Below the pieces are notes generated by a model, which was not told the origin of the DNA, did no database searches, and saw only the letters and a program-made list of their open reading frames with translations. The translations under genes were made by a program, and so were the position numbers. Of a stretch of 42,918 nucleotides of DNA, positions 1 to 34,882 are shown piece after piece. Location of the stretch: the NCBI GenBank assembly GCA_902570675.1, contig CACFYZ010000009.1, forward strand, positions 1-42,918. Reading direction: 5' to 3'. Source of the stretch: an uncultured Pelagibacteraceae bacterium. GTDB lineage: Bacteria; Pseudomonadota; Alphaproteobacteria; Pelagibacterales; AG-422-B15. The first letter of the stretch is position 1. Every line of letters starts with the position of its first letter.

Positions 1-1202
1 ATCACAAACATATATTAGATTATAATTCAATCAGCGCACTTAATTCTTATTATGGAGAGTATATTGAACAATTAACACGTTGGAATATTAGCGATAATAA
101 TTTTCCTGATCCAAGATATCTTTATGACGACTTTATAAATTCTCTTAATTATTGGTATAATTTCTTAAAATATTTTGATATTACTGAAATATATATCTAT
201 GAAGACCCTCACCGCGCATATGATTTATTAGTTTATGCGTTAGCAAAGTTTTTAAAAATAAACATTTTTATATTTTCTGACTTAAATACTGGATACAGAA
301 CATTTATAAAGCAAAATATATATGATAATTTACTTGATGTTAAAGGCAATTTCCCATTTGCAAACAGAGAAATATCTAATGAACTAAAGTATAATCATTT
401 TAAATCACAGTTCGCTCATAAAAATTTTATTGAAAAAATATATGATTTAATAATAAGAATACCAAAAGTTTTTAAGTATCATGATACATATATTTATTCC
501 AATAGAGTGGCTTTTATTAAAATCAATCCATTTAGATTTGTTATGTGGAAAATCAGAAGATATATAAAAACTATTAATTATAAACTTTATTTTAATAAGT
601 ATGCAAAGTCTTTTTCAGTATCTGATGAGGATATTGTATTCTTTTTACATTACGAGCCCGAACGTACTTCTAATCCTGTTTCTGGAGTGGGCAGAAATCA
701 GTTATACTGTATTAAAATGTTAAGAAAATCTTTCCCTCAAAAAAAGATATATATTAAAGAACATCCTACTCAATTACATCTAAAAAACTCACATCAAAAT
801 CGACAATATCGGGATAGAAAATTTATAGATCAACTTCTATTAATTTCTGACGGTATAGTATCTAAAATTTCAAACGACTCTAAATTTATCGTGGCAACTT
901 TAAACGGAACTGCAGGGTTAGAATACTCTCTTAAAGGTCATAATGTTATTTGTTTTGGTAATCCCTGGTATAGTTTTTTGCAAAATGTATATAGTATAAA
1001 AAGTAGTATAGAATTAAAGAATATAAAATTTAGTCACAATAATCCCCATGAAATCAATAAAGAACTTAATAATATTTTATACACTAAATCTGTCAAAGGA
1101 AGCATATCTAATAAATTCGAAAAAGTTGGTGATAATGACGAGTATGCTCGCGATGATACTGAGCTTTTGAATTATATTAAATGGTATTTTGATATACCTT
1201 AA
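1..1202 (+). CDS. Capsule polysaccharide biosynthesis-like glycosyltransferase (5' end missing)
   Basis: The frame is open from the left edge to the TAA at 1200-1202, so the start lies outside the window. About 399 residues are visible. A GTG at 507 could be mistaken for a start, but the same frame runs unbroken upstream of it. The C-terminal third has features of capsule-synthesis and polysialyltransferase-like GT-B enzymes: a KEHP motif, then a stretch reading TLNGTAGLE followed by VICFGNPWY, which in such families forms the sugar-nucleotide site. No membrane segment or signal peptide is visible. It probably transfers a sugar or sugar-phosphate during surface glycan assembly in the cytoplasm, consistent with the glycan genes that follow. 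The family assignment rests on motifs and the substrate is unknown. It is very AT-rich, like its neighbours. Confidence 0.6.
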   Translation, partial: HKHILDYNSISALNSYYGEYIEQLTRWNISDNNFPDPRYLYDDFINSLNYWYNFLKYFDITEIYIYEDPHRAYDLLVYALAKFLKINIFIFSDLNTGYRTFIKQNIYDNLLDVKGNFPFANREISNELKYNHFKSQFAHKNFIEKIYDLIIRIPKVFKYHDTYIYSNRVAFIKINPFRFVMWKIRRYIKTINYKLYFNKYAKSFSVSDEDIVFFLHYEPERTSNPVSGVGRNQLYCIKMLRKSFPQKKIYIKEHPTQLHLKNSHQNRQYRDRKFIDQLLLISDGIVSKISNDSKFIVATLNGTAGLEYSLKGHNVICFGNPWYSFLQNVYSIKSSIELKNIKFSHNNPHEINKELNNILYTKSVKGSISNKFEKVGDNDEYARDDTELLNYIKWYFDIP

Positions 1203-1246
1203 AGTTTAGATAAATTCATAAAAGCAATAAAGCAATACGAACATAA

Positions 1247-1885
1247 ATGTTAAAATTTTATAATAATTTTTTAGTTAAGTTTAAGACAAAATTAAAAAAA
1301 TTTAGAAAATTTAATGCTTTAAATCATATAGATAAAAAAATGTTAGATTATATAAATTTTTCCAATGGTTTTTTTATAGAGTGTGGAGCAAATGATGGGA
1401 TTAATCAATCTAATACATGGTATTTTGAAAAGTATTTAAACTGGCATGGGCTGCTAATTGAACCTTTAGAAGATAAATTTGTAGAATTAAAAAAGAATAG
1501 AGGTGATCGTAATTATTTTTATAATGTTGCCTTATCAGATAGCATAGATAAAAAATCATTACTGATTTTAGATAATAATTTAGAGTCTAAAGTTGTTGAT
1601 AAAGCAAATAATGAAAAGAATATTTCAAAATTCAAAAGTTCAACTCTAACAAAAATTTTAGAGGAAATCGCTGCACCTAAATTAATTGATTTTTTTTCAT
1701 TAGACGTAGAAGGGTTTGAAGAACACGTAATTAAAGGGATAGATTTTAAGATATATAAGTTTAAGTTTTTATTAGTTGAAACTAAAAATGAGAGAGTGAT
1801 TAAATTTTTAAAAGATAATAATTATGAGTTTGTGAAGAAAATGAGTCATCATGACTATCTTTTTAAATTTAAAGAGGGACTTTAA
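1247..1885 (+). CDS. FkbM family methyltransferase
   Basis: A 212-aa SAM-dependent methyltransferase of the FkbM/Methyltransf_21 type. The SAM-binding loop FIECGANDG lies at about residues 43-51, an acidic ribose contact (IEPLED) follows, and the family motif SLDVEGFEE lies near residue 150. The short basic N-terminus is not a signal peptide. In polysaccharide clusters, FkbM enzymes usually O-methylate a sugar of the repeat unit. That role fits the position between two glycosyltransferases but is inferred. The ATG at 1247 lies 44 nt after the previous stop and the preceding sequence shows no strong Shine-Dalgarno. Length is normal for the compact members. Confidence 0.85.
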   Translation: MLKFYNNFLVKFKTKLKKFRKFNALNHIDKKMLDYINFSNGFFIECGANDGINQSNTWYFEKYLNWHGLLIEPLEDKFVELKKNRGDRNYFYNVALSDSIDKKSLLILDNNLESKVVDKANNEKNISKFKSSTLTKILEEIAAPKLIDFFSLDVEGFEEHVIKGIDFKIYKFKFLLVETKNERVIKFLKDNNYEFVKKMSHHDYLFKFKEGL

Positions 1886-1954
1886 TTTCAAGTATATTAA
1901 TTGTATACTTTAGATAGGTATTATTTCTAACAGGATTAATGAATAAATTAAAAT

Positions 1955-2863
1955 ATGAATCTGGCTCCAATAATACTTTTTGTTTATAATCGTAAATGGC
2001 ATACAAAAGAAACTATAAATGCTCTAAAAAAAAATCACTTATCATCTAAAAGTGAATTATTTATTTATTCAGATGGACCAAAAAATAAAAAAGATTTGGA
2101 TAAAGTTAATGAGGTAAGACAATACTTAGAAACAATTCAAGGTTTTAAAAAAGTAACCATCATTAAAAAAGAAAAAAATCAAGGCTTAGCTACTTCAATT
2201 ATATCAGGGGTAACAGAAATAATTAACAAATATGGAAAAGTTATTGTTCTCGAAGACGATTTAGTCACAAGTCCATACTTTTTGAATTTTATGAATAAAG
2301 CGCTTGATTATTTCGAAGATAATGAAAAAGTTTGGCATATTTCAGGATGGAGTATCCCCATAGATCTAAATAATGAAAGTGATGTTTATTTGTATCGAGT
2401 TATGAACTGCTGGGGATGGGCTACCTGGTCAAAACACTGGAAGTATTTTGAAAAAAACACTAGCAAACTTTTAGATCAATTTTCTACGAATGATATAAAA
2501 CTCTTCAATCTTGACGGTACGTACAACAATTTTTGGAAACAAGTAGTTTTAAACCATAAAAATAAATTAGAAACTTGGGCAATATTTTGGTACGCAGTTA
2601 TCTTTAAAAATAATGGCTTATGTTTAAATCCATGTAAAAGTTTTGTAAGAAATATAGGTTTTGATGGCAGTGGGAATCATACATTTGATACAAATTATGA
2701 TGATAATATTAAGTTAAATAACAAAGAGCTTATTAATTTTGATATTGAGATTAAAGAAGACAGCCTTGTTATTAATCAAATAAAAAATTATTATAAAAAT
2801 ACAAATAATAATTTTTTATCAGTGTTATTCGATAGAGTAAAAATATTTTGGTCTCGTAAGTAG
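1955..2863 (+). CDS. GT2-like glycosyltransferase
   Basis: A 302-aa protein that begins with a GT-A style N-terminus (APIILFVYNR, then IYSDGP). An acidic VLEDD at residues 98-102 is the likely metal and nucleotide-sugar binding motif, and a Trp-rich acceptor region (NCWGWATWSKHW) follows around residues 150-160. This architecture is seen in GT2-related sugar transferases of O-antigen and glycan loci. No transmembrane segment is evident, so it should act on the cytoplasmic face of the membrane on a lipid-linked acceptor. Donor and acceptor cannot be told from sequence. It sits between the FkbM methyltransferase and the Wzy-like polymerase on the same strand and is probably co-transcribed with them. 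Confidence 0.75.
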   Translation: MNLAPIILFVYNRKWHTKETINALKKNHLSSKSELFIYSDGPKNKKDLDKVNEVRQYLETIQGFKKVTIIKKEKNQGLATSIISGVTEIINKYGKVIVLEDDLVTSPYFLNFMNKALDYFEDNEKVWHISGWSIPIDLNNESDVYLYRVMNCWGWATWSKHWKYFEKNTSKLLDQFSTNDIKLFNLDGTYNNFWKQVVLNHKNKLETWAIFWYAVIFKNNGLCLNPCKSFVRNIGFDGSGNHTFDTNYDDNIKLNNKELINFDIEIKEDSLVINQIKNYYKNTNNNFLSVLFDRVKIFWSRK

Positions 2864-2905
2864 AAATTATTAAATTAATTGAATTTAAAAAAAAATAGAT
2901 AAATA

Positions 2906-4255
2906 ATGTTAGTTTACCCTTTTCCTAATAAAACCTTATCCACTTTATCATTACTTATCATTCCCATAGCTATATCTATAATTTATATCAGCTCGTTTGA
3001 ATTTAATTTCTATTTATATTTATTTTTAGTTGTATCAATTTTCTTACTGCTTTTTACAAAACATAATATCAAGGCATGGTTCTGGCTATCTTTATTTTTG
3101 ATAATTTATTCATTTCCCCACTTCACAGAATATTATTTCTTTGAAGGTAATAACATGATTACTGCGAAAAAATATAATTATATAATTAATGAAAGTACAT
3201 ATAATTTAGAAGCGATCAGATTGTTATTAAGCTTTATTTTAAGTTTGGTTTTAGGCAGTAATTTATTTAGTTTATTTAATGTTAGGTTAAAAATTGAGGA
3301 ATCCAAAAAAAAATTACTAATCAATATTAGACCTAAAATGAGTATATATAAAAAAATTATCTTATTCTCATTAATGTTTTTTTTGGCAATTTACTCAATA
3401 TCAGTAATTGATTTCTCAGTTCAGAGTCAGGGTTATAGTTTAGGGGGATTTAATATTTTATTTGGAGTATGCTATATATTACACTTTTTTCTTCTCTATC
3501 AATTTCTTAATATTAAAGATAGATACAAATATTTCATTTTAATTCTAGTATTATATTCAATTATACTTGGATTCTTTGGTGTTCGCCAGGTTCTATTCTG
3601 GTTATTTGTTTCACTATTAATAGCATATTTTTTTAAGTCATATATTGCAAATAAAAAAATTAACTGGATAAGGATCTTTTTTTATTTATCTCTAGTTACA
3701 GTTTTTTTCGCTATAATTTTAGCCTTCAGAAATCAAAAATTGCTAGATGCAACAGTTTTATCAAGAACAGGTGAAATGATTTTTTTTGGATTACGCGCTG
3801 AAACAAATTATACGTTTTATAACATGTTTTCATCAATTCATGTAAGTGAAAATGAAGATTTATTTTTTATGAAAAGCTTTAGAGATACCTTGTATTATCT
3901 TATACCTAGGCCAATTCTTCCGAATAAATATGAATTTATAACTCTATATCAATTTATTAAAAGTCATGACCTTAGTCCATTTGGATCTTCATTTTATCTA
4001 GGAGAATTAAAACTTACTCTAAGATATGATGTTCTTATCTTACTATTTGGATTAATAATTAGCTTTGCTTCTGAATTTTTTTTGTTGCACACTTTAAAGA
4101 AAAAGGACATTTTACTTTTGACTTTGTATATATCCTTTCTTGTGATGGTTTTTATCTATCCTATAAGAGGTCCAATTGGAGGAGGGGTTAAAGTTTTCAT
4201 ACAATATAATTTAATATTTTATATCTTTTTAAAATACCGATTTATTATTAAGTAA
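2906..4255 (+). CDS. Wzy-like O-antigen/oligosaccharide repeat-unit polymerase
   Basis: A 449-aa polytopic membrane protein with roughly ten to twelve hydrophobic segments and few other landmarks. A longer polar loop around residues 290-360 carries Arg-rich and aromatic residues (LSRTGEMIFFGLRAETNY, LIPRPILPNKYEF), as expected for the periplasmic loop of Wzy-type polymerases. The C-terminus is again hydrophobic. Sequence conservation in this family is poor, so the call relies on topology and on the neighbouring glycosyltransferases. It would polymerise undecaprenyl-linked repeat units at the periplasmic side of the inner membrane. An OpgC-like or other polysaccharide membrane protein is possible but less likely. 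Base composition is among the most AT-rich in the window. Confidence 0.6.
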   Translation: MLVYPFPNKTLSTLSLLIIPIAISIIYISSFEFNFYLYLFLVVSIFLLLFTKHNIKAWFWLSLFLIIYSFPHFTEYYFFEGNNMITAKKYNYIINESTYNLEAIRLLLSFILSLVLGSNLFSLFNVRLKIEESKKKLLINIRPKMSIYKKIILFSLMFFLAIYSISVIDFSVQSQGYSLGGFNILFGVCYILHFFLLYQFLNIKDRYKYFILILVLYSIILGFFGVRQVLFWLFVSLLIAYFFKSYIANKKINWIRIFFYLSLVTVFFAIILAFRNQKLLDATVLSRTGEMIFFGLRAETNYTFYNMFSSIHVSENEDLFFMKSFRDTLYYLIPRPILPNKYEFITLYQFIKSHDLSPFGSSFYLGELKLTLRYDVLILLFGLIISFASEFFLLHTLKKKDILLLTLYISFLVMVFIYPIRGPIGGGVKVFIQYNLIFYIFLKYRFIIK

Positions 4256-4278
4256 ATAATTTATAGTTAATACTAATT

Positions 4279-5022
4279 ATGAAAATAAATATAATTACAG
4301 CAACCTATAATAGAGAAGATACGATTGAAAGAGCGCTTACAAGTGTAAAGAAACAAACTTATCAAAATATACAAAGTATTATTATAGATGGTGCATCTAC
4401 AGATAATACAATCAATTTAGTCAATTCTCTAATAAGTCAAAATGATATCTTAATATCTGAACCTGATAGTGGCACTTATGATGCGCTTAATAAAGGAATT
4501 CAAATATCAAAAGGAGATGTAATTGCCTTTCTACATTCAGATGATTTTTATAGTGACACAAATGTAGTTAGTCGTGTTATGAAATTTTTTTTAAACAATG
4601 AAATTGACATTGTTTACGGAGATGTGTCATTTTTTAAAAAAAATAAAATAGAAAAACCAATTAGAACTTATAGGTCTGACCAACTTTCAAAGAAAAATTT
4701 AGCGCGTGGAAAAATGCCTGCTCATCCCGCAATGTTTATTAAACGTGAAGTTTATGAAAAAGTTGGTCTTTTCAATACTAGCTATACTATTGCCGGAGAC
4801 TATGAATTCTTATGTAGATTGATCATGAACTACGAAGTTAAAACAATATATTTGCCTGAAATTTTAGTCAAAATGCAAATTGGAGGACGCAGTACTCAAG
4901 GTATAAAAAGTAAATATATTTTAAATAAGGAAACTTATAGAGCTATTACGAGTAACGGGATCCAAACAAATATTTTTTTGTTTCTATCTAAATATTTTTC
5001 AAAGATTAGACAATTAATATAA
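4279..5022 (+). CDS. Glycosyltransferase family 2
   Basis: A 247-aa classic GT2/GT-A enzyme. The N-terminus reads INIITATYNRE, IIDGASTDNT lies at residues 35-44, the metal-binding HSDD at about 86-89, and the catalytic-base region AGDYEF near residue 174. It has no membrane anchor. It resembles the WcaA/PgaA-like group that adds a single sugar to a lipid-linked intermediate, but the sugar is unknown. It starts 23 nt after the polymerase stop. The gene ends at a convergent junction with the WecA-like gene, and the 56 nt between them contain no clear terminator hairpin. Confidence 0.88.
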   Translation: MKINIITATYNREDTIERALTSVKKQTYQNIQSIIIDGASTDNTINLVNSLISQNDILISEPDSGTYDALNKGIQISKGDVIAFLHSDDFYSDTNVVSRVMKFFLNNEIDIVYGDVSFFKKNKIEKPIRTYRSDQLSKKNLARGKMPAHPAMFIKREVYEKVGLFNTSYTIAGDYEFLCRLIMNYEVKTIYLPEILVKMQIGGRSTQGIKSKYILNKETYRAITSNGIQTNIFLFLSKYFSKIRQLI

Positions 5023-5078
5023 ATTTAAATAAAAGCTAACATATTTATAAATATGGCAATAACTTAAAACTTTAATAT

Positions 5079-6068
5079 TTATTTTGCGTACCTATTTCTT
5101 AATAATAAAAAGATAATAAAAAAAGTTATAAATAATACTAATGAGGCTAAGGAACTCATAATTAAGAAACTTAGGTATCCAATTAAAAATAATATCAGAT
5201 TTAATGTAGTGATAAAAAAATTAGTGAATAAAATAGATTTTGTTTTATGAAATATTATGTGATGTAGATGATCTTGCCCTGCCTTGAAAGGGTTTTGATT
5301 ATTTCGTAATCGAATGATATTAATCGAGAGAAATTCATATACATAGATAACTATTGTCCATGCAAGTAGGATTGGATGTATTAACTCTCTATTTGCAAGA
5401 TATATTAAAAAAAATGATATTATAAAGCCAAGTAGTAAGCTGCCACTATCTCCTAGAAACATTTTAGGCAATTTTAGAAAAGAAAAATTAAAAAATAGAA
5501 AAATACAAATCGGTATTAAAAGAACTAATAGAAATGATTGAAATTCCTGATCTGAAATTAAAAAATATAGAATACCTAATACAGAAATAGATGTGAGACT
5601 TAAAGTACCATCAAGACCATCAAAATAATTAAAAGCATTAATCAAAAATAATGAACAAAGTATAGTTAAAGGTATTGAGAAAGAACCAACATCTAATATA
5701 AAATAGTTATAATCTCCTAATTGCCTTAAAGCTAAATTTTCAAAAACACATAAATAAAGTATTGGGAATAATTGAAGAATTAACTTATTGCCGACATTTA
5801 AATGAAATTTATCGTCAATTAAACCTATTATAGACATCAAAAATGCCATTGATATGATAAGGCTTAAATTTTCATTAGAGATTTCAAATAATAAATTTGC
5901 AATAATTAATGAAGTAGAGACTCCAATACCGCCAGTAAAAGCAGTGGCATAATAATGTATCTTTCTGTTATCAGGTAAATCGACTAAATTTAATTTGTAC
6001 GAAATTTTTGAGCATAAAAAAAATAGAATAAAACTTAATAATGCATAAATTATTATTGAAAGGATCAT
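5079..6068 (-). CDS. MraY/WecA-family undecaprenyl-phosphate glycosyl-1-phosphate transferase
   Basis: A 329-aa polytopic membrane enzyme of the polyprenyl-phosphate N-acetylhexosamine-1-phosphate transferase family. Diagnostic motifs are visible: LIDDKF at 83-88, NAFNYFDGLDG at 144-154, FLGDSGSLLLGF near 204-215, and a histidine-rich DHLHHI loop near the C-terminus. About ten TM helices are apparent. Family members (WecA, TagO, WbpL) load the first sugar-phosphate onto undecaprenyl phosphate and so start repeat-unit synthesis. This is a plausible initiating enzyme for the surrounding cluster, although it is transcribed in the opposite direction. MraY of peptidoglycan synthesis is less likely in this context. 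The upstream region contains a (TAA)6 tract. Confidence 0.88.
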   Translation of the reverse strand: MILSIIIYALLSFILFFLCSKISYKLNLVDLPDNRKIHYYATAFTGGIGVSTSLIIANLLFEISNENLSLIISMAFLMSIIGLIDDKFHLNVGNKLILQLFPILYLCVFENLALRQLGDYNYFILDVGSFSIPLTILCSLFLINAFNYFDGLDGTLSLTSISVLGILYFLISDQEFQSFLLVLLIPICIFLFFNFSFLKLPKMFLGDSGSLLLGFIISFFLIYLANRELIHPILLAWTIVIYVYEFLSINIIRLRNNQNPFKAGQDHLHHIIFHKTKSILFTNFFITTLNLILFLIGYLSFLIMSSLASLVLFITFFIIFLLLRNRYAK

Positions 6069-6090
6069 TAAGTTTTTTTAATACCTTGTT

Positions 6091-6108
6091 TAATAATAAT
6101 AATAATAA
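6091..6108. repeat. (TAA)6 trinucleotide tract
   Basis: Six uninterrupted TAA units lie in the 216-nt divergent gap between the WecA-like and WaaL-like genes, about 25 nt upstream of the WecA-like start codon. Otherwise the gap (6069-6284) is AT-rich, with no gene and no clear RNA structure. It should contain both divergent promoters, but none stands out above the background. Confidence 0.85.
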
Positions 6109-6284
6109 TCAAAATGTTTAAACCATTTTTGTTTCTTAAATTTATTACAAATTATCGCTAATTTAACTTCATAAAAATACTTAAATTTTTAAAATTTATT
6201 TTTTTTTAAGATTTAAATTAAACAATATCTTTATAGCTGTCATTCTGATATTTATAATATATTTCTAATTATTCTAGATAAAAT

Positions 6285-7532
6285 ATGAATATAAGTATTA
6301 ATATCGCTTCAATATTATTTTATTTAATACCATTAGCACTTTTGTCAGGTCCTTTTTTACCTGACCTTTTCCTTTCAACGATTTCTATAATATTTTTAAT
6401 TAATGTTTTATATTACAGACAATATTTTTACTTTAAAAGTTACTTTTTTATATTATTTGTTTTATTTTATATTTATATAGTTGCAAATTCTATTTTTTCT
6501 GATTATCGATTACTATCTCTTCATTCTTCATTATTTTATTTTAGGTTCGGATTGTTTGCTTTAGCAACATGGTATTTGATAGAAAATAATAAACATTTCA
6601 TTAATTATTTTGGTCAAATACTGCTCTTAACAATACTATTAGCTTTAGTAGGTGGATTTTTTCAATATTTTACTGGAGTAAATTTTTTAGGTATTTCGTC
6701 TGAAATGCAATCTAGGTTGACTCTAACATTTGATGATAAATTAATTATTGGTGGATATATTGCAAGATTGTTACCACTCCTAGTTGCAATAATTTTAATT
6801 GGGTCAAGTAAATTAAAATATAAATATATTATTATTAGTGTTTTATTCGTTTTCTCAGATGTTCTTATTTATTTGTCTGGTGAACGTACAGCACTGGTAC
6901 TAATTACTATTTTAACATTATTTTTACTAGCTACTATGTCTCAGTTAAAGTTGCTTAGGATTTTAAGTATTATATTGTCAATCGGTTTAATTGTGGGAAT
7001 ATCAATTTATAATCCTGAAACAAAAAAAAGAGTTGTTGACTTAACGATAGAACAAAATTATCAGGAAGAAAGTGTGAAAAAATTCTATTATTTTTCACCT
7101 GTACACGACTCATTAGCAAGAACTTCAATAAATATATTTAGAGATAACCTAGTCTTTGGCAGTGGACCTAATACATTCAGAGAAATGTGTAGTAGATCAG
7201 ACTATAGAATTGATAAGCATTCATGTTCAACTCATCCTCATAACATATATCTACAGCTAGCATCTGAAACTGGAATAATAGGTTTATTACCAATTTTATT
7301 AATTATTTTTTATTTAGTTTATATTATATCAAAGCATCTTTATTCAATTATTACTTCTAAAGAAAAAAAGTTTTTATCTGACTATCAATTATGCCTTATC
7401 TCATGCTTTGTTTTAACAATGTGGCCTTTATTACCAACCCAAGATTTCTTTAATAATTGGATAAATGTAATTTTTTATATACCGATTGGATTTTATTTAT
7501 CATCCATTTATAGTAACAACTATGGTAAATAA
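6285..7532 (+). CDS. O-antigen ligase family protein (WaaL-like)
   Basis: A 415-aa membrane protein with about ten to twelve hydrophobic helices and a periplasmic loop in the second half. The loop carries the Wzy_C/WaaL signature: a GER motif near residue 198 (LSGERTALVL) and the conserved HPHNIYLQLASETGIIGL near 318-335, where a histidine is functionally important in the family. O-antigen ligases move the finished glycan from undecaprenyl diphosphate to lipid A-core in the periplasm. A Wzy polymerase of the same superfamily cannot be excluded, but a separate Wzy-like gene exists upstream. Its last 11 nt overlap the preferred start of the SET-domain gene, so the two are probably co-translated. 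Confidence 0.8.
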   Translation: MNISINIASILFYLIPLALLSGPFLPDLFLSTISIIFLINVLYYRQYFYFKSYFFILFVLFYIYIVANSIFSDYRLLSLHSSLFYFRFGLFALATWYLIENNKHFINYFGQILLLTILLALVGGFFQYFTGVNFLGISSEMQSRLTLTFDDKLIIGGYIARLLPLLVAIILIGSSKLKYKYIIISVLFVFSDVLIYLSGERTALVLITILTLFLLATMSQLKLLRILSIILSIGLIVGISIYNPETKKRVVDLTIEQNYQEESVKKFYYFSPVHDSLARTSINIFRDNLVFGSGPNTFREMCSRSDYRIDKHSCSTHPHNIYLQLASETGIIGLLPILLIIFYLVYIISKHLYSIITSKEKKFLSDYQLCLISCFVLTMWPLLPTQDFFNNWINVIFYIPIGFYLSSIYSNNYGK

Positions 7533-8031
7533 AAGTCGCTTAATAGAAACAAACTATATAGTTAAACATTCAAAGATTCATGGTACTGGCATTTATGCTT
7601 ATTCAGAAATAAAAAAAGGCACAAAAATAATTGAGTATGTGGGTGAAAAAATCTCCAAAAAAGAGGGTGATCGAAGATCAGAAGCACGAATAAAAAAGTA
7701 TTTAAATTCAAAGAAAACTGGCTCAGTATACATATTTGAATTAAATTCAAGATACGATGTTGATGGATCAAAAAAATACAATAAAGCAAGATACATAAAC
7801 CATTCCTGCAATCCTAACTGTGAAGTTGATATTATTAGCGGAAAAATCTGGATAATTGCTATAAAAAACATTAAAAAAAATATTGAATTAACTTATGATT
7901 ATGGATATGAATTCGATAAAACAGATTTTGAAGATCACAAATGTTTGTGTGGTTCAAATAATTGTATTGGATACATTATCGCAAAGGATGATTGGCCTAA
8001 ACTTAAACGGTTTCTTAGTAAGAAAAATTAA
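7522..8031 (+). CDS. SET-domain protein-lysine N-methyltransferase
   Basis: A 169-aa stand-alone SET protein. Visible signatures include the N-flank HGTGIYAYSEIKKGTKIIEYVGE, the pseudoknot motif RYINHSCNPN, the core ELTYDYGY, and a post-SET zinc-type cluster ending in CLCGSNNC. All the elements expected for SAM binding and lysine methylation are present. The ATG at 7522, inside the end of the ligase gene, is preferred. An upstream in-frame TTG at 7486 would add 12 residues without homology. It also overlaps the downstream Wzz-like gene by one base (TAATG), so it lies inside a tight three-gene unit. Bacterial SET proteins methylate lysines in ribosomal, nucleoid or other proteins. The target here is unknown, and the link to glycan assembly is only positional. 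Confidence 0.88.
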   Translation: MVNKSRLIETNYIVKHSKIHGTGIYAYSEIKKGTKIIEYVGEKISKKEGDRRSEARIKKYLNSKKTGSVYIFELNSRYDVDGSKKYNKARYINHSCNPNCEVDIISGKIWIIAIKNIKKNIELTYDYGYEFDKTDFEDHKCLCGSNNCIGYIIAKDDWPKLKRFLSKKN

Positions 8032-9401
8032 TGAATAATCAAAGCGACAATATAATAGAAATAAATTTTTTTAAATTTTTTAAATATTTTTCAAATAATA
8101 TTTTCTATTTTGTTCGCAATTTTCTTACGATTTCAATTTTATCTATAATAATATTTATCTTATACTTAATTATCAAACCCAATGAATCAGTATACATACA
8201 AGGCAATCTTTTAATTCAATCAGAGGAGGTCGCAAATAATATCGATCAAAAATTTTTATTTAATGCAGAGATATTTACCAAAGCTATAAATGAAAGTGGT
8301 CTTGGTGACAAGATTACAGTGGATAAGAAATTTATGAATTCTTTTGAGCTTGTTCCTGGACATACGGGTATGAACAAACTTATAAATCATTATATGGAAC
8401 AAGATTTTGATCTTCTTGTTAAACAATTGAAACATAAACGAGAAAATATTGATAAGCTTTTAAATGAAATGATACAAGCTAGTTCGCAATATTTAATAAT
8501 AACTGCAGATGTAAACAATCTTAATCTTGATGATATAGAGATTAAATTATTTATTAAGAATTTGGTTGACTCAATGAATGTATTTTTGAGAAAAGAATAT
8601 GATTCAAGTAACATCGGGTTAAAATTTATTGGACCAATAAAAATCGATTCACCTATTTCCTCACTTGATGTTAACCACATAAACTCTAGATTAAACTTGC
8701 TCAATAGTTACATTAGTATTCTGAACTTAAACTACAAAAGTTTTGCGCCTGAGATAAATTTAGACGACCTATCTAATGATTTGGATGATGTGAATGATGT
8801 ATTTAATTATATAATACAAGAAAATGATTTGTATGTTGATTTGGTAGGACAAAAACTTGATCTTGAAATTGAGTCATTTGAAAAATTATTATTAGCCAAT
8901 TCAGAGAGACTATCTGTAATGGGTCTGAGCTCAACTAATCAAACAACTTTCGGAACGGCCTCTGGTACAGGTAATATAAGCTATGACTCAACTTTTTTAG
9001 ATACAATTTTAGACTTAGGAAATCGGGCATCAGGAGCGGAAGATAGAAATATTGTTCTTCAGAAAGCAGCTGATCTCAATGCACAAATCGTTGATCTTCA
9101 GAGACGTAAATCGGAATTGACTGTCAAGTACCAACTTGGCTTGACACAAGAAGAAGCAATGACTTTTCTGACAAATATGCTCGATCAAACTGCTGAGCAA
9201 ATTAATCAGTACATCTTAAGTGTTCAAAGTGGATTAAGAATGAATGAGCCAGTTAAACTAGTCTCATTGTTAACATCAAATGCAGCATCTTTAACAGAAA
9301 TAATGCTAAGACCAATAATAATAATATTTATATTTTCAATATTAATATCACTTATAATCTCTTCTTTCGATTTTAGTCGGCAATCTAATACAAACTATTA
9401 A
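8031..9401 (+). CDS. Two-TM Wzz-like chain-length/polysaccharide co-polymerase candidate
   Basis: A 456-aa protein with one TM helix near the N-terminus (about residues 29-49) and one near the C-terminus (about 424-446), enclosing a large polar, partly helical periplasmic domain. This is the layout of Wzz-type chain-length determinants, although no clear Wzz proline-rich motif precedes the second helix. The middle has long predicted helices (residues about 245-300 and 335-415) around a Gly/Ser/Thr-rich stretch. It overlaps the SET gene by one base and follows the ligase. I infer that it regulates glycan length or export. Sequence similarity to any named family is weak to my eye, so the call rests on topology and context. 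Confidence 0.5.
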   Translation: MNNQSDNIIEINFFKFFKYFSNNIFYFVRNFLTISILSIIIFILYLIIKPNESVYIQGNLLIQSEEVANNIDQKFLFNAEIFTKAINESGLGDKITVDKKFMNSFELVPGHTGMNKLINHYMEQDFDLLVKQLKHKRENIDKLLNEMIQASSQYLIITADVNNLNLDDIEIKLFIKNLVDSMNVFLRKEYDSSNIGLKFIGPIKIDSPISSLDVNHINSRLNLLNSYISILNLNYKSFAPEINLDDLSNDLDDVNDVFNYIIQENDLYVDLVGQKLDLEIESFEKLLLANSERLSVMGLSSTNQTTFGTASGTGNISYDSTFLDTILDLGNRASGAEDRNIVLQKAADLNAQIVDLQRRKSELTVKYQLGLTQEEAMTFLTNMLDQTAEQINQYILSVQSGLRMNEPVKLVSLLTSNAASLTEIMLRPIIIIFIFSILISLIISSFDFSRQSNTNY

Positions 9402-32942: not shown

Positions 32943-33686
32943 ATGGCAGGTCACTCAAAATTTAAAAACATCATGTATCGCAAGGGTGCACAAGATAAAA
33001 AAAGAGCAAGTTTATTTTCAAAGTTATCAAAAGAGATTACAGTAGCAGCCAAATTAGGATCACCTGATCCTGAACAGAATGCTCGTCTAAGATCAGCTAT
33101 TCAGCTTGCTAAATCTTCAAGTTTCCCAAAGGAAAATATAGACAGAGCTATAAAAAAATCTTTGGATAAAGATACAGTTAATTACGATCAAATGAGATAC
33201 GAAGGTTTTGGTCCCAATGGCACATCAATTATTGTTGAAGCATTGACTGATAACCGCAATAGAACCGCGTCAAATGTGAGATCTACATTTCAAAAATTTG
33301 GTGGTTCAATGGGTGAAAGTGGTTCAGTATCTCATGCTTTTAATCATTATGGATTTCTTCGTTATAATAAGACTATTGCTATTGACGAAGAATTTTTCAA
33401 TTATTCTATTGAGAATGGAGCGGAAGATTGTTTTTTAGATGAAGAAACTTACGAAGCTGTTTGCACACCTGAGCAATTATCAAATTTTTATAGAATTCTT
33501 GAATCGAAATATGGAGAACCTGTGTCATCAGGTTTTCAATGGAAGCCAACTTCCTACGTGAATATTAAAGGTGATAAACTTAAATCTCTTATTAATTTAC
33601 TGAATGAATTAGATAATGATGAAGATGTTCAGCAAGTCTTCTCAAATTTTGAGGCACCAGATGAAGAATTAGCAGTGTTTACCTAA
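32943..33686 (+). CDS. yebC: YebC/PmpR family translational/transcriptional regulator
   Basis: A 247-aa YebC protein. It has MAGHSKFKNIMYRKGAQDKKRASLFSKLSKEI at the N-terminus, RYEGFGPNGTSIIVEALTDNRNRTASNVRSTFQKFGG in the middle and the usual three-domain layout. YebC proteins are linked to translation of difficult sequences and to gene regulation. It is commonly the gene before ruvC in proteobacteria, and here the next gene is instead a PD-(D/E)XK nuclease. No gap separates it from the YmdB-type gene. Confidence 0.96.
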   Translation: MAGHSKFKNIMYRKGAQDKKRASLFSKLSKEITVAAKLGSPDPEQNARLRSAIQLAKSSSFPKENIDRAIKKSLDKDTVNYDQMRYEGFGPNGTSIIVEALTDNRNRTASNVRSTFQKFGGSMGESGSVSHAFNHYGFLRYNKTIAIDEEFFNYSIENGAEDCFLDEETYEAVCTPEQLSNFYRILESKYGEPVSSGFQWKPTSYVNIKGDKLKSLINLLNELDNDEDVQQVFSNFEAPDEELAVFT

Positions 33687-33752: not shown

Positions 33753-34133
33753 ATGCCAGGTAGTTCTCCAAAAAGAAAAGGTGACGGTTATGAGAGAGAG
33801 CTTGCAAAATATTTCAATAAAAAAATATTTGACGGTGAAGATAAGGTTCAAAGAATGCCACTATCTGGTGGTGGTGCAATAAAATCTTCAGGAGGTAGTG
33901 ACTTAAAGAATACACCTCATATTTATGTGGAAGCTAAAAGAACTGAAAAATTTAAAATTCACGAGTCTATGAAGCAAGTCATTGATAATATAGAAACATC
34001 AAAGTCCGAGTCTATGCCAGTTGTAATTACCCGCAGAAACCGAGAGTCAACCGGTGACTCACTTTGCATATTGAAACTGGATGATTTTATTGAATTGTAT
34101 CGAATATTAATTGATAGCAAAAAGAGATCTTAA
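33753..34133 (+). CDS. Small PD-(D/E)XK nuclease, Hjc-like Holliday junction resolvase candidate
   Basis: A 126-aa protein of clear PD-(D/E)XK pattern. It shows KRKGDGYERELAKYF with Glu14, a Gly/Ser-rich stretch with SGGG at residues 38-41, then GGSD with Asp50, YVEAK with Glu60 and Lys62, and Gln75 in the following helix. Order and spacing resemble archaeal Hjc and phage-type resolvases (G-x-x-x-E-R-E, S-G-G, D, E-x-K, Q). VRR-Nuc or other PD-(D/E)XK nucleases are possible. It lies between yebC and tolQ, a position where ruvC, ruvA, ruvB and ybgC are often found. None of these is in the window. I infer that it might stand in for RuvC. Confidence 0.65.
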   Translation: MPGSSPKRKGDGYERELAKYFNKKIFDGEDKVQRMPLSGGGAIKSSGGSDLKNTPHIYVEAKRTEKFKIHESMKQVIDNIETSKSESMPVVITRRNRESTGDSLCILKLDDFIELYRILIDSKKRS

Positions 34134-34177: not shown

Positions 34178-34882
34178 ATGGAAAATGAAGATCTAGTTAG
34201 CGTAAGTCAAGTAAATGACGAATTTACTTTAATATCACTTTTTTTTAGAGCTGACTTAGTAGTTAAACTAGTCATTTTAATTTTATTTGCTTCATCGATT
34301 CTGTCATGGACTATTATTATTCATAAAATACGATTATTCAGATCACTAAAAAGTATTAGTAAGCAGTTTGAAGATGAATTTTGGTCTGGTCGTTCAATCA
34401 AAGAAATTACGAATAGCACTAAAGATTTACCTGATAGTCCTATTAAATATGTATTCTCTGAAGCTGTTGATGAGGTTGAAAAATCAAATAAAGAAACAAC
34501 AAAAAAAATTGATAGTCTGATTGATCGTTTAAACAGAGTGATGGAAGCTGCTATTGACTATCAAAATGAAAAGCTTTCTGAGTATTTTAGTTATCTCGCT
34601 ACAATTGGTGCTACCACACCTTTTATTGGATTGTTTGGAACAGTTTGGGGTATTATGAATTCTTTTCAATCGATTGCAATATCTAGAAATACATCACTCG
34701 CAGTTGTTGCACCAGGAATAGCTGAAGCATTATTTGCTACTGCTCTAGGCTTGTTAGCTGCTATCCCCGCGGTTATTGCGTATAATATTTTCACTAGTCA
34801 AGTGAATGACGAAAACGCTCGGATGTATCGTTTTAAAGAACACTTTAATGTAATTTTTTCTAGAGGCTTAAATACAAATTAA
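34178..34882 (+). CDS. tolQ: Tol-Pal system protein TolQ
   Basis: A 234-aa inner-membrane protein of the ExbB/TolQ/MotA family with three TM helices. The first lies near residues 28-48, and the second and third flank the conserved YLATIGATTPFIGLFGTVWGIMNSF and LAVVAPGIAEALFATALGLLAAIPAVIAYN. With TolR it forms the proton-driven motor of the Tol-Pal envelope complex, which keeps the outer membrane intact at division. It starts the tolQRAB-pal-cpoB run. The usual ybgC gene is not upstream. Confidence 0.96.
   Translation: MENEDLVSVSQVNDEFTLISLFFRADLVVKLVILILFASSILSWTIIIHKIRLFRSLKSISKQFEDEFWSGRSIKEITNSTKDLPDSPIKYVFSEAVDEVEKSNKETTKKIDSLIDRLNRVMEAAIDYQNEKLSEYFSYLATIGATTPFIGLFGTVWGIMNSFQSIAISRNTSLAVVAPGIAEALFATALGLLAAIPAVIAYNIFTSQVNDENARMYRFKEHFNVIFSRGLNTN

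Follow-up and report, generated by a model that had tools for sequence, protein, structure and literature searches.

Gene organization of the locus

The stretch of DNA analysed here (the window, 42,918 nucleotides) comes from a 1.03-Mb genome with a completeness of 77.65%, of the SAR11 order, which comprises the most abundant bacteria of the ocean. The order consists of two families, referred to below as the window's family and the sister family. In the window, a single gene is located between yebC and tolQ, 66 bp downstream of the former and 44 bp upstream of the latter, all on the same strand. The features of the locus are the following:

32943–33686, + strand: yebC, upstream edge of the ruvCAB slot (gene neighbourhood)
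33753–34133, + strand: gene for a PD-(D/E)XK nuclease of 126 aa, a putative Holliday-junction resolvase (Pfam, PHROG, AlphaFold2 and fold matches)
33792–33794, + strand: codon of Glu14, first acidic residue of the predicted catalytic pattern, helix 1 (sequence; invariant in a 36-row alignment)
33864–33875, + strand: invariant Ser38-Gly39-Gly40-Gly41 loop (flexible, modelled at low confidence by AlphaFold2)
33900–33902, + strand: codon of Asp50, predicted metal-binding Asp of PD-(D/E)XK (invariant)
33930–33938, + strand: Glu60-Ala-Lys62, the (D/E)XK motif, on strand 57–62 (invariant; model)
33975–33977, + strand: codon of Gln75, helix 69–82 (invariant; model)
34178–34882, + strand: tolQ, downstream edge of the ruvCAB slot, with tolRAB next (gene neighbourhood)

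The row reads zapA-fthC-ymdB-yebC-[nuclease]-tolQ-tolR-tolA-tolB. The residues that the earlier note had listed for this 126-aa open reading frame (E14, SGGG at 38–41, D50, E60-x-K62 and Q75) agree exactly with the sequence, and the solitary position of the gene between yebC and tolQ, also remarked there, is the same in all four genera of the window's family. The GC content of the gene is close to that of its neighbours, and its operon holds no other phage genes. No terminator was found around the gene, and promoter-like sites are no commoner there than expected by chance. Elsewhere in the window, positions 507–9398 hold a run of putative surface polysaccharide synthesis and glycosyltransferase genes.

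The yebC–tolQ interval and the absence of RuvABC

The order yebC-ruvC-ruvA-ruvB-(ybgC)-tolQ, which the earlier note had given as common in proteobacteria, was observed in 13 of the 20 alphaproteobacterial RuvA loci sampled, with parts of the row in others. These 13 rows are usually preceded by zapA-fthC-ymdB and followed by tolRAB. Since the ruv row runs from yebC to tolQ in other Alphaproteobacteria, the nuclease of the window's family stands precisely where ruvCAB belongs. The upstream neighbour is yebC in both SAR11 families, in a HIMB59-like genome (G326) and in genome G345, both described below, and in most of the RuvABC-bearing alphaproteobacterial genomes read.

The ruv genes were searched for in the window genome and 96 relatives of the order (n = 97, 56 of high quality), with control genomes positive for each model. 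Neither RuvC (PF02075) nor RuvA (PF01330) was found in any of the 97 genomes, and no RuvB match (TIGR00635) exceeded the cut-off, the best one reaching 34.5 bits against 299. Because the window genome is only 77.65% complete, the evidence for absence comes chiefly from its relatives. The earlier note had left open whether ruvAB were moved or lost, and had named an intact ruvCAB elsewhere in the genome as evidence against its proposal; these searches indicate that they are lost and not moved, and no such set was seen in the 97 genomes. RecG, which it had also suggested searching for, is retained in nearly all genomes of the order; in the window genome it lies at G000:C12:16684-18528 and scores about 646 bits, slightly under the strict cut-off of the model. 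As judged from the sequence searches, RuvABC has been lost throughout the SAR11 order. RuvA was detected in 257 of the 289 genomes that were sampled from Alphaproteobacteria as a whole (218/234 of the good ones); two of the 16 good genomes without it belong to SAR11. Other RuvA-less genomes of the class are G313, G380, G398, G403, G414 and G429.

The nuclease gene is present in 43 of the 53 genomes of the window's family, in all four genera; every one of the 25 genomes with a completeness of 80% or more carries it, and the ten genomes without it all fall below that value. The orthologues at this locus share 74–96% identity, and gene order is constant wherever it could be read. The dN/dS values of the nuclease (0.04–0.18) are comparable with those of ymdB, yebC, tolQ and tolR. 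The gene is thus fixed at the locus and, like the housekeeping genes on either side, evolves under purifying selection. With the ruv genes absent and a putative substitute fixed exactly in the ruvCAB position, the locus very probably represents an in-place replacement (non-orthologous displacement), as the earlier note had supposed for RuvC.

Family and predicted fold of the nuclease

The window protein is a member of Pfam family PF24608 (PDDEXK_15, phage putative PDDEXK endonuclease), with 35.4 bits and an E-value of 1.3e-8 for a cut-off of 27, which is exceeded in 43 of the 53 genomes of its family. It is also matched by PHROG 244 (phrog_244, 3.3e-20), whose "RusA-like" name is a mere label, the resolvase name of this phage family being an annotation. 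The Pfam scan gave only PDDEXK_15 and a sub-threshold match to Hjc (PF01870; 12.5 bits, E 0.14, curated cut-off 21.1), and the RuvC domain PF02075 is absent from the protein; the best of its relatives reached an E-value of 0.0033 with the Hjc model. The Pfam models of RusA, VRR-Nuc and RecU did not match at E-values up to 10, NCBIfam has no family for the protein, and sequence searches of the PDB with the single protein or with a 36-row profile gave nothing significant.

The 36-row alignment, composed of 28 phage relatives and eight rows of the window's family, presents K7, K9, G10, D11, E14, R15, R34, S38–G41, D50, E60-A-K62-R63, E65, Q75 and R94 as invariant. E14, D50, E60, K62 and Q75 are invariant throughout the window's family and these phage relatives. 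In the AlphaFold2 model (pLDDT 84.8, low at residues 4–9 and 39–46) together with the alignment, the pattern follows that of Hjc: a Glu in a helix (12–25), then the Asp, then E-x-K on strand 57–62. Archaeal Hjc and Hje account for 12 of the 13 best PDB matches in the fold search (probability up to 0.99), although the best E-value (0.015) and the TM of about 0.45 are modest; the RecU structure 1zp7 ranks 14th. Of the earlier note's proposal of an Hjc-type or phage-derived resolvase, the phage type and the Hjc-like motif were borne out, whereas the Pfam Hjc cut-off was missed and VRR-Nuc, the other family named for comparison, was unmatched. The window protein is therefore described here as Hjc-like in motif and nearest to Hjc in predicted fold, and formally a member of the phage family PDDEXK_15.

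Phage relatives

The nearest relatives outside the window's family are marine phage proteins with 44–54% identity, among them gp22 of Roseobacter phage CRP-810 (48% identical to the window protein), which is annotated as a Holliday junction resolvase. In unrooted trees, the nucleases of the window's family form one clade, supported at 98/91, which clusters with some of the phage sequences. The phage relatives adjoin a primase-polymerase and a Sak4-like annealing protein, with an integrase in some, and the cellular flanking genes occur at none of the viral loci. Such a replication-recombination module is a place where a junction resolvase is expected. On the unrooted trees, a transfer from phage to cell would be the natural reading.

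The shared viral layout consists of the Sak4-like annealing protein, a primase-polymerase of ~667 aa and then the resolvase, in contigs L129, L134, L139, L141, L146, L147, L156, L168, L172, L184, L196 and L200; its gene families were checked for L134 and L168. Both L134 and phage CRP-810 also have an identified integrase.

The slot in the sister family

In the 20 genomes of the sister family in which the yebC–tolQ interval was read, it holds one gene encoding a protein of 159–165 aa, with ybgC in addition in some of them. This slot gene lies, for example, at L058:2226-2717, and the same interval is found in L055–L074. Its product starts with IGIDPG or FSIDPG, and AMPGQGVTSMFNFGQ is present in nearly all of the proteins. 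It matches PHROG 1770 (~1e-36) and the chloroplast resolvase MOC1 (6kvn, E 1.9e-13), a proven Holliday-junction resolvase; the Pfam RuvC model fails to detect it. Its identity is 42–51% to phage proteins and mostly 20–25% to canonical RuvC, and in the unrooted tree a grouping with canonical RuvC was not rejected (p-AU 0.54). The comparison of the locus in sister genomes that had been suggested earlier thus revealed a constant slot within the window's family, and an unrelated RuvC-like gene of the MOC1/phage type in the sister family. The chromosomes of G058, G059, G065 and G056, of the latter family, measure 1,308,759, 1,456,888, 1,343,202 and 1,237,371 bases.

Over 297 genomes, the two genes are strictly mutually exclusive: the MOC1-type resolvase-like gene occurs in 230 of 244 genomes of the sister family and in 0/53 of the window's family, and the PDDEXK nuclease in 43/53 of the latter and 0/244 of the former. 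The 14 sister-family genomes without the MOC1-type gene were considered together with two odd ones. In 13 of these yebC is missing, and in two it sits at a contig end; the slot of these 15 therefore falls in an assembly gap. In the last of them, G136, the MOC1-type slot gene is broken in frame. No intact yebC–tolQ interval without a resolvase-like gene was seen among the SAR11 genomes examined. G141, a sister-family genome with no yebC, gave a MOC1-type match of lower strength (1e-32), which may be a phage copy at another site.

Two further RuvA-less lineages

Two RuvA-less genomes from outside SAR11 were opened, and both present a phage-type nuclease after yebC:

L342:1782-2150, − strand: slot gene of G326, 122 aa, with an E...D...ExK pattern, between yebC and tolQ
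L483:7436-7942, − strand: PDDEXK_15 protein of G345, 168 aa, 76.8 bits, directly after yebC

The HIMB59-like genome G326 is a single contig of 1,410,127 bases with 32.3% GC. A tblastn search of the whole chromosome gave no ruvA or ruvC, only weak AAA matches for ruvB, and a recG. Its slot protein, of the PD-(D/E)XK type, matches PHROG 2002, labelled Holliday junction resolvase, at 1.5e-8 and has viral relatives up to 76% identical. The motifs of the window nuclease and this protein can be aligned, but a profile comparison between the two did not reach significance.

In G345 the row reads zapA-fthC-ymdB-yebC-[168-aa nuclease]-tilS-ftsH-glmM, and no tol genes were found at the locus or elsewhere within the 836 kb read. 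The relatives of its nuclease are jumbo-phage proteins (44% identity) and one viral contig (63%). A single origin of this nuclease and those of the window's family was rejected, as they do not form one clade (p-AU 8e-11).

It is likely that at least four small-genome alphaproteobacterial lineages lost RuvAB, each carrying a different phage-type single-subunit resolvase after yebC, which would be a recurrent replacement site. The enzyme types in this likely scheme would be the marine-phage PDDEXK_15, the MOC1/RuvC-like type, the PHROG 2002 PD-(D/E)XK type and the jumbo-phage PDDEXK_15.

Proposed function and alternative explanations

We propose that the gene very probably encodes the cell's own phage-type Holliday-junction resolvase, which replaced RuvC at its native locus in the ancestor of the window's family, with RuvAB lost. 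By analogy with Hjc, a homodimer of PD-(D/E)XK subunits would bind the four-way junction, E14, D50 and E60 would hold the metals and K62 would assist catalysis, and paired nicks in two opposed strands would release two duplexes. With no RuvAB motor, the enzyme would have to locate and cleave junctions by itself, like archaeal Hjc and many phage resolvases, and branch migration would depend on RecG. Having taken over the position of ruvC, the gene would keep the same expression context. Junction cleavage, dimerization and independence from RuvAB are here predicted from these analogues.

The protein might instead be a branched-DNA or flap nuclease whose substrates are broader or different, such as reversed forks and gaps, and which is kept for replication repair, with junctions resolved by another enzyme such as YqgF or left to a RecG-led pathway without resolution. 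According to PMC3864405, viral resolvases are typically more promiscuous on branched DNA; RecG is present; and in the rare genomes without RuvC and RecU, YqgF was suggested to take over (PMC1193525). Yet YqgF co-occurs with RuvC or RecU, and its resolvase activity was undemonstrated at the time of that survey (PMC1193525); moreover, the gene occupies the very place of ruvCAB, and the slot of the sister family is filled by a protein of the MOC1 type, for whose relatives junction activity has been proven. We consider this reading improbable.

Divergence of SAR11 proteins and the incompleteness of the window genome could suggest that the models overlook a highly diverged ruvCAB, the nuclease being an addition rather than a replacement. 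This is very unlikely, considering that three independent models were negative in the 97 genomes (56 of high quality) with positive controls, that matches to the RuvB model stay at or below 34.5 bits for a cut-off of 299, and that the native locus is filled by another gene. Just as slight is the chance that the gene is left over from a phage or prophage, or serves against phages, and lies near tolQ by accident with no housekeeping role: its nearest relatives outside the family are indeed phage proteins (44–54% identity), but it keeps one locus in four genera, with dN/dS of 0.04–0.18, a GC content like its neighbours and an operon free of other phage genes, and other lineages have unrelated resolvase-like genes in the slot. 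The best explanation is that single-subunit phage-type resolvases, which would work without RuvAB, have repeatedly replaced RuvABC in place.

Relation to known systems

The window protein resembles the PDDEXK_15/PHROG 244 phage proteins in sequence membership, motif and length, and its nearest relatives are marine phage proteins; it differs from them as a fixed chromosomal gene in a housekeeping row, in a family without RuvABC. With archaeal Hjc/Hje (PF01870; 2wcw, 1ob9, 1gef) it shares the E-D-ExK pattern, and they are the nearest matches to its predicted fold, but it falls under the Pfam Hjc cut-off, has the invariant SGGG loop, and is bacterial and phage-related. Its likeness to the RuvABC resolvasome lies in genomic position and, by inference, in biological job, whereas it is one gene, of a different fold, with no RuvA or RuvB partner. 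MOC1 and the phage RuvC-like proteins fill the same slot in the sister family, but have an RNase H fold and are unrelated to it. RecU of Firmicutes is likewise a resolvase unrelated to RuvC in the place of RuvC, which is already known (PMC1193525), but it works with RuvAB, and the window protein has no Pfam RecU match.

RuvAB ranks with the most widespread functions of recombination: in a survey of 117 bacteria, it was missing from only two RecA-bearing genomes, and it was considered that prophage proteins might supply resolvase function (PMC1193525). No report of RuvABC replacement or loss in SAR11 was found in the open-access literature, though other publications may mention it. Two things are new as far as this literature shows: across SAR11, phage-type enzymes of different folds are fixed at the position of the entire RuvABC set, which they would replace, and the same has apparently recurred in other lineages.

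That a dominant ocean order lacks RuvAB and has phage-type enzymes at its position suggests that a single gene can take over from the bacterial resolvasome. The replacement bears on how SAR11 completes recombination, the rate of which has been reported as high (Vergin et al. 2007, as cited in PMC7318151). If the proposal is true, the most abundant bacteria of the ocean would recombine with phage-type resolvases and no RuvAB motor.
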